Below are positions 35,688 to 36,138 of a stretch of 64,000 nt of DNA, piece by piece. The stretch is from the NCBI RefSeq assembly GCF_001684955.1, contig NZ_MAYF01000001.1, positions 84,991 through 148,990 on the forward strand. Reading direction: 5' to 3'. The translations under genes were made by a program, and so were the position numbers. The stretch comes from Chryseobacterium contaminans (lineage in GTDB: Bacteria; Bacteroidota; Bacteroidia; Flavobacteriales; Weeksellaceae). Numbering within the stretch: position 1 is the first letter of the stretch; every line of letters starts with the position of its first letter. Under the pieces are notes generated by a model. That model was not told the origin of the DNA. It saw only the letters and a program-made list of their open reading frames with translations, and did not search any database.

Positions 35688-36138
35688 ATTTGAAATTTGA
35701 GATTTGAGATTTGAAATTATAGACGGTTAAATTTATTTCCGTTATGTTCAGTAGTTTTTAAGTACTTCATAAATCCTGAAATCATTTTTGATAAATCCGC
35801 ATAATCTTTTTTCAAATCATTAAATTCATTTTCGTTAATAAAATTTCTATCAAATGCTCTGATTAATTGTGATCTTACCTCACCACATGAACCTTTTGAC
35901 ATTGATAGAAAGTTAATAAACTCTTTATTTCCCTCCCTTTCAAAACCTTCTGCAATATTATCCATGACAGAAGCCGATGATCGGTCGATTTGATTTTTAA
36001 TATTTTGACTGCAATTTGAATTTTGTATTACTGAGATATAAATTTTTTGGCACAATTCTCAGGATTTCTTCCAAATGTCTAAATCCTCAAAGTTGTTTAT
36101 TGTTGCCATAATTTCAAATCTCAAATTAAATTTCAAAT
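35688..36138 (-). repeat. IVS-like element with terminal inverted repeats, between sufC and sufD
   Basis: The arms are 35688-35719 and 36109-36138. In the transcript the first arm reads ATTTGAAATTT, two unmatched bases, then TTTGAGATTTGAAATTA. The second arm is its complement with four bases in the place of those two. The first arm ends at the ATG of the four-helix gene and the second begins at its TAA, so the RNA would form a stem of about 28 bp with the ORF in the loop. The outer ends touch the sufC stop codon and lie five bases from the sufD start. Confidence 0.75.
35717..36109 (-). pseudogene. Four-helix-bundle (23S rRNA intervening-sequence type) gene with a nonsense codon
   Basis: From ATG 36107-36109 the frame reads MATINNFEDLDIWKKS, then TGA (36059-36061), then ELCQKIYISVIQNSNCSQN and on to ASVMDNIAEGFEREGNKEFI, GSCGEVRSQL and the end at 35717. 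The TGA replaces the Arg codon (probably AGA) expected in the usual KSRELCKKIY motif, so the gene is broken by a single base change. An internal ATG further down is not likely to be the true start, because it would cut off helix 1. The family forms ring-shaped helical bundles and is known from intervening sequences in 23S rRNA genes and near retroelements (bAvd-like). It sits between sufC and sufD, framed by inverted repeats. Confidence 0.85.

Follow-up and report, generated by a model that had tools for sequence, protein, structure and literature searches.

Introduction

The intervening sequences (IVS) of 23S rRNA are the closest described systems to the unit that we report here. For the Coxiella 23S rRNA IVS, the available excerpts of PMC4990558 describe a 28-bp terminal stem with an S23 ORF in its loop and an RNase III cut in mid-stem. 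IVP ORFs are placed in rRNA insertions of CPR bacteria in the excerpted text of PMC11270868, and the resemblance between PF05635 and Avd is already in print, as the available part of PMC10053308 states. Heptamer direct repeats such as TAACTGA are reported in excerpts of PMC4679880, mostly near start codons and also from five Bacteroidetes. Among the literature matches listed, which covered few subscription journals, none described S23/IVP genes that lie in operon spacers between inverted arms, and none gave a role for operon-spacer S23/IVP copies. Short intergenic inverted repeats are otherwise represented by MITEs and REP-type hairpins, of which ORF-less forms exist.

Here we analyse a stretch of 64,000 nucleotides from Chryseobacterium contaminans (the window), together with related genomes. 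An earlier note on this DNA had placed a four-helix-bundle gene of the IVS type, framed by inverted repeats, in the gap between sufC and sufD, and had read it as an IVS-like element inside an mRNA.

Results

An S23/IVP gene framed by inverted arms fills the sufC-sufD gap

The coordinates and anatomy in the earlier note proved right. The whole gap is filled by a unit of about 450 nt made up of arm, S23/IVP ORF and arm (sufB, sufC and sufD in the window were named by profile search), and its features are as follows:

36138..36881, minus strand: sufC (SufC ATPase), upstream cistron; TIGR01978, E 3e-107
36138-36140, minus strand: sufC stop codon
36110..36137 (28 nt), minus strand: left (5') arm of quasi-repeated 7-nt units, which follows the sufC stop directly
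35717..36109, minus strand: four-helix-bundle (23S_rRNA_IVP / S23) ORF, 130 codons plus stop, interrupted by TGA; PF05635, TIGR02436
36107-36109, minus strand: ATG of the S23/IVP ORF
36059-36061, minus strand: in-frame TGA, codon 17 of the S23/IVP ORF, in this copy
35717-35719, minus strand: stop of the S23/IVP ORF
about 35688..35720, minus strand: right (3') arm, complementary to the left arm, overlapping the S23/IVP ORF stop
35680-35682, minus strand: sufD ATG, 5 nt after the right arm end
34375..35682, minus strand: sufD, downstream cistron, beginning MSLKEQ directly after the right arm; TIGR01981, E 2e-83

As had been claimed, the arms touch the start and stop codons of their own ORF, and their outer ends lie at the sufC stop and near the sufD start, 5 nt before its ATG. 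The S23/IVP ORF is the only ORF of at least 60 aa between sufC and sufD; a reverse transcriptase ORF is absent among ORFs of that length, which separates the unit from diversity-generating retroelements. With sufC and sufD as its neighbours, it does not lie inside an rRNA gene, the location of a 23S rRNA IVS. An Rfam search near the unit returned a single match (E 0.38, far under the gathering score), which we take as chance, and promoter-like sites were at chance level (5 against 4.4 expected). A reading of the stem as a terminator was rejected, there being no terminator-like site on the minus strand and no T run after the stem. The suf cluster of the window has a second extra gene, a 168-aa ORF between sufB and sufC (36900-37406, minus strand) that, by eye, we take to be GNAT-like. 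Elsewhere in the window, tandem ORFs of 308 and 307 aa (32230-33156 and 33382-34305) are closely similar by eye.

The arms comprise two inverted pairs, one joining 35702-35720 to 36108-36126 (19 nt, 100% identity) and the other joining 35685-35698 to 36128-36141 (14 nt, 93% identity). The predicted RNA fold of 458 nt has an energy of -99.7 kcal/mol (z -4.24; matched by none of 100 shuffles), and in it the arms pair over 11 bp, a small internal loop and then about 18 bp. This prediction agrees with the proposal of an RNA stem of about 28 bp with the ORF in the loop. Judged by sequence and predicted fold, the window unit has the long stem of terminal inverted repeats that characterises a 23S rRNA IVS, and it has an S23/IVP ORF in the loop, broken here and intact in three of the seven carriers in the genus. 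The likeness drawn earlier, of the plan of a protein-coding rRNA IVS set inside an mRNA, is borne out by architecture and size as far as the excerpts of PMC4990558 describe them. The right arm forms the sole period-7 run in the window (35678-35725; threshold, a 28-nt stretch with 75% identity at lag 7), and the left arm falls under the threshold.

The encoded protein belongs to the S23/IVP family

The piece of the window ORF after the TGA matches PF05635 (E 2e-27) and TIGR02436 (E 2e-28) over the curated cut-offs, and the whole frame contains one TGA, at codon 17. The family and position first assigned to the ORF stand; the interruption had gone unmentioned. For the intact orthologue L187, the predicted structure (mean pLDDT 91.8) has four long helices, and Foldseek with this model put 2gsc (E 2e-5) and 2rld, of the S23 family, on top, with Avd (4dwl, E 0.07, TMq 0.73) next and then a retroelement complex (8ub7). 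Matches at the sequence level among known structures were confined to 2gsc and 2rld, and among the matches listed, the named records that scored best against the element protein were from Chryseobacterium. The sequences L187, L198 and L252 are apparently those of genomes G006, G099 and G016. Where the ORF is intact it evolves under purifying selection: at seven sites, over pairs with dS from 0.1 to 1.5, the median dN/dS was 0.06-0.12. At long-held sites such selection could reflect a host function, a point that we count against an IVS-like reading.

The element is patchily present at the sufC-sufD boundary

The sufC-sufD gap was read in 90 of 118 genomes of the genus, a comparison of spacing among relatives that the earlier note had proposed. 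A whole element was found in seven (G000, G006, G016, G034, G038, G054 and G099), a 5' remnant, consisting of the left arm and the first ORF bases fused to the native gap, in two (G002 and G023), and no element in 81. The note had named one distribution that would tell against it, the same element in all relatives with no copies elsewhere; what we found was absence from 81 of 90 genomes and recurrence at 44 sites. Its suggestion of a class that spreads in operons accords with those sites, with the patchiness at suf and with the copies elsewhere.

In most of the 81 non-carriers the gap is roughly 70-172 nt (the length for L092 was left out because the BLAST match ended short of the sufC end), and carriers have no such native gap. 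The native spacer in carriers has been replaced rather than interrupted, with no target-site duplication seen at the suf site, and no transposase was seen. Many non-carriers have an extra in-frame ATG nine codons upstream (MVQTTDIPVMA instead of MS), which may make sufD longer in those genomes; in three non-carriers (L091, L124 and L126) sufD starts with MSL, as in carriers. Two non-carriers, L076 (G091) and L089 (G033), have another insert of 515-520 nt between sufC and sufD, alike by eye. Many non-carrier gaps (L041-L066, L067-L126) resemble, by eye, a decayed copy of another intergenic repeat, of the form GTCATTCTGAATGAAG...GAATCTC...GGATTCC...GGAATGACA.

Arms are kept in all seven carriers, and the ORF is intact in three and broken in four by different lesions; its breakage despite the persistence of the arms is counted against the IVS-like reading. 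Carriers are patchy on a weakly supported sufC tree (273 nt of sufC, 89 of 90 rows), with four changes. Between carriers the mean divergence of the element is 0.066 and that of the sufC end 0.108, with the element the less diverged in 20 of 21 pairs; the single reversed pair (element 0.061, sufC 0.033) is counted against the IVS-like reading. Between G099 and G016, in both of which the ORF is broken, the element differs by 0.019, the last 150 nt of sufC by 0.12 and the first 150 nt of sufD by 0.087. From this low divergence we infer an exchange of the element itself or its recent arrival in one of the two; a suf copy less diverged than its flanks in this one species pair suggests movement or exchange. 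Between G038 and G054 the element divergence is 0.014, and low divergence reaches into the first 150 nt of sufD.

The arm-ORF-arm plan recurs at many sites

Matches to TIGR02436 are present in 116 of the 118 genus genomes, with 1-18 in each, and in a sample of the phylum Bacteroidota 223 of 296 genomes have S23/IVP (TIGR02436) genes, as do 113 of 140 genera. We assembled 175 loci (6 from the window genome, 29 and 60 from the genus and 80 from named genomes), which fall into 44 sites, each a pair of neighbour genes. They include a few broken ORFs (such as L003, L198 and L252), whose ends are possibly misplaced. Each locus was given an inverted-repeat (IR) score, the best local inverted repeat between its 220-nt flanks. 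The median score was 31, with 121 of the 175 loci above 25 and 83 above 31, and the site median exceeded 25 at 36 of 44 sites. Shuffled flanks gave a median of 17, a 99% point of 25 and a largest value of 31 among 525, and right flanks swapped between loci gave a median of 18, with 95% and 99% points of 29 and 41 that are raised by the words which orthologous sites have in common. In 400 kb of a relative, G002, ordinary genes had a median of 18, with 8 of 372 above 25 and none above 31; the window copy scores 43. RNA duplex energy between 80-nt flanks gave z below -3 in 113 of 174 loci, compared with 2 of 150 control genes drawn at random.

Both neighbours are co-directional with the ORF at 166 of 175 loci and, by majority, at 36 of 44 sites; ordinary adjacent ORF pairs at the named loci share a strand in 187 of 248 cases. 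The geometry of the arms was measured in the 102 loci whose IR score reached 28 and whose neighbours were both co-directional. In these the left arm begins a median of 2 nt past the upstream stop (IQR -2 to 8; within -6 to +12 in 86 loci), and the right arm ends a median of 3 nt before the downstream start (IQR -11 to 7; within -10 to +15 in 56). The inner distances are looser, with medians of 13 and 15 nt and upper quartiles of 53 and 33. In an independent, profile-chosen phylum sample of 27 loci the feature is weaker, with a median IR score of 22, 11 loci above 25, seven above 31 and both neighbours co-directional in 21.

Three suf boundaries hold 36 of the 80 named loci, in a search that was seeded with the suf-site protein, and by eye none of the 21 phylum loci (of 27) with both neighbours displayed is suf-like. 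The idea of suf as a universal hotspot was therefore rejected, and suf appears typical of this subfamily only. At other loci, the names moxR, DUF58, recJ, nadD, nuoH/I, carA/B, rlmB, sufA and sufB are those that we presume from the protein termini. A Flavobacterium columnare four helix bundle protein between guanylate kinase and nicotinate adenylyltransferase is tabulated among phage regions in the excerpted text of PMC5524665, and its downstream neighbour there is the same as in the recJ|nadD elements.

The arms are period-7 arrays whose words follow the protein

The arms are quasi-tandem arrays of about 7 nt. Over the 67 loci that had a full window and an IR score of 28 or more, mean lag-7 identity was 0.50 against 0.31 in shuffled sequence, and the best lag was 7, 14 or 21 in 55. 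Read by eye, the Chryseobacterium copies at suf and nuo have the arm word GATTTGA and the Flavobacterium copies at suf have GTTTCAAG; the moxR copies have GGTAGCA and the recJ copies GGGATTA, with CGTGTTC and others elsewhere. Stops in all frames were rejected as the cause of period 7, since at least two words, CGTGTTC and GTTGCGG, carry no stop codon. A strict period of 7 was likewise set aside, as some Flavobacterium-type words in the phylum sample read by eye as period 8. In L016 and similar recJ|nadD loci, the first arm heptad spells, by eye, the last codons of the upstream gene and its stop (R-D-stop).

Similarity of arm words tracks similarity of proteins across 42 sites (143 loci with an IR score of at least 22; rho 0.40, 0 of 2000 permutations), and rho is 0.25 (94 of 2000 permutations) for the 15 sites of the genus only. 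Within 11 sites that have at least four loci each, left arms match their own right arm better overall than that of an orthologue (4067 against 3758, sd 58, 0 of 2000). This own-partner signal comes mainly from two multi-genus suf sites; the other nine gave one p of 0.022 and eight of 0.07 to 0.998, a result counted on the negative side.

Most copies are inherited in place, and arrays occur without the ORF

A protein tree was built from 165 of the 175 proteins, those with an internal stop or shorter than 85 aa, the window copy among them, being dropped. Sites cluster on this tree, which has few columns and unsettled bootstraps, with 29 changes against a shuffled mean of 123, so most copies appear to be inherited in place. 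Copies from the nuo boundary nest among the sufCD copies of Chryseobacterium, and GATTTGA arms are common to both; the sufCD copies of Flavobacterium have another arm word and branch as a clade of their own. We infer that transfers of arm-ORF-arm units from one site to another are rare and that the sufC-sufD boundary has probably been occupied twice.

At moxR|DUF58, compared in the 30 best-matching of 118 genomes, the spacer is of unit length in 18 (462-536 nt from the last moxR codons, judged by length), holds an ORF remnant by eye in four and is short (64-119 nt) in eight. When seven distinct short spacers were folded, strong hairpins came from L354 (z -5.0) and L373 (z -6.5), a weak hairpin from L347 (z -2.0) and none from the other four. 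The word of the L373 hairpin is GGGATTA, as in the recJ element of the same genome about 16 kb away, and not the GGTAGCA of the site.

The 400 kb of G002 contain 22 period-7 runs, 21 of them intergenic, against 2-3 runs at lags 5, 8, 10 and 11. These runs are without the ORF, so heptad arrays are wider than the ORF, which is counted against the IVS-like reading. The G002 arrays (L297-L316) have many words; some form inverted pairs with nothing between (L302:14115-14206), and one is a perfect GGATTTA array (L315:18066-18160). Upstream of nuoI (L267-L296), ORF-less heptad arrays such as CTAATGTCTAACATCTAACATCTA stop just before the nuoI start in many of 30 genomes.

Discussion

We consider it probable, if some way from certain, that these units are an IVS-like class of elements of operon spacers and mRNA, in which inverted period-7 arms and an S23/IVP gene form one unit with a predicted stem that RNase III would be likely to cut. 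The anatomy, the recurrence at many sites, the orientation bias and the linkage between arm word and protein across sites are shown directly. So are the purifying selection on intact ORFs, the patchy presence, the spacers that hold arms only and the copy less diverged than its flanks. The arms in suf mRNA would pair into the predicted stem of about 28 bp, which RNase III, by analogy with the rRNA system, would be likely to cut. Such a cut would separate a sufC message from a sufD message with neither coding sequence damaged, and operon spacers may be tolerated sites because a cut operon message would still yield both proteins. The S23/Avd-fold protein may bind its own arms or stem, and the unit may spread by rare copying or by recombination between species. 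The interpretation given in the earlier note is, overall, partly supported, and our analysis adds to it the period-7 arms, the outer ends tied to stop and start codons, the ORF-less relic hairpins and the broken ORF.

The tight outer anchoring of the arms leads to another reading, in which the stem is not for cutting and acts as a clamp that brings the upstream stop beside the downstream start across the insert. Terminating ribosomes would then be likely to pass to the next cistron, and operon expression would be kept. This would suit outer arm ends tied to stop and start (medians 2 and 3 nt) with looser inner distances, and the loss in carriers of the native spacer of roughly 70-172 nt; however, a ribosome that terminates there would sit on the base of the stem and melt it, and the right-hand anchoring is looser (56 of 102 loci within -10 to +15 nt), and we think a clamp quite unlikely. 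It is also unlikely, in our judgement, that the units are MITE-like or transposon-like elements that move as DNA, with terminal inverted repeats whose RNA pairing is incidental and a sense orientation that stems from a promoterless ORF needing read-through. Their inverted ends, their many sites, the arms common to suf and nuo copies, the element-limited divergence and the ORF-less hairpins are what such elements would show, but the unit has no other ORF of at least 60 aa, no target duplication was seen at the suf site, sites turn over slowly (29 site changes on the 165-protein tree) and the end sequences vary from one subfamily to another.

Patchy presence at the suf and moxR sites, repeated ORF loss and flank complementarity far above that of ordinary genes make it distinctly improbable that a host regulatory or processing gene has been inherited in place in operons, with arms that are intergenic period-7 simple repeats arising from slippage. 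The points in favour of such a gene are the site-specific protein clades, the dN/dS of 0.06-0.12 and the general occurrence of period-7 arrays between genes in the sampled 400 kb of G002.

The IVS-like reading has a wider form, which we offer tentatively and would not yet adopt. The units would be mRNA intervening sequences throughout the phylum Bacteroidota, hairpins of inverted period-7 arrays that fill spacers, carry an Avd/S23-fold gene and enter at the upstream stop codon, and in which the encoded protein recognises the heptad word of its own subfamily. They would be cut from operon messages or hold stop and start together, and would leave ORF-less heptad relics between genes, of the order of 260 arrays per genome if the 400-kb G002 sample is extrapolated. 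If the units are mRNA versions of rRNA IVS, they are an example of how operons can host an RNA insert, provide a cause of uncoupling inside conserved operons, suf among them, and may explain many intergenic period-7 hairpins. The Avd/S23 fold would also gain a testable nucleic-acid partner, its own heptad arms.

Among known systems, the 23S rRNA IVS, as described in the excerpts of PMC4990558, resembles the unit in its size of about 430-450 nt, its terminal stem of about 28 bp, the S23/IVP ORF in its loop and the decay of that ORF. Unlike that IVS, the unit lies between protein genes of an operon and not in an rRNA helix, its arms are period-7 arrays and its outer ends are tied to stop and start codons. 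The Avd protein of diversity-generating retroelements (4DWL, 8UB7) is predicted to share the four-helix fold (Foldseek TMq about 0.7, probability 1.00, E 0.07 or worse), whereas identity is about 4-6% and the unit is without a reverse transcriptase ORF. MITEs and REP-type hairpins differ in that the unit has no transposase partner found, no target duplication seen and end sequences that vary. The heptamers in the excerpts of PMC4679880 are also seven-nucleotide repeats, but direct ones of a single word, whereas the arms of the unit are inverted pairs of many words around an S23/IVP gene.
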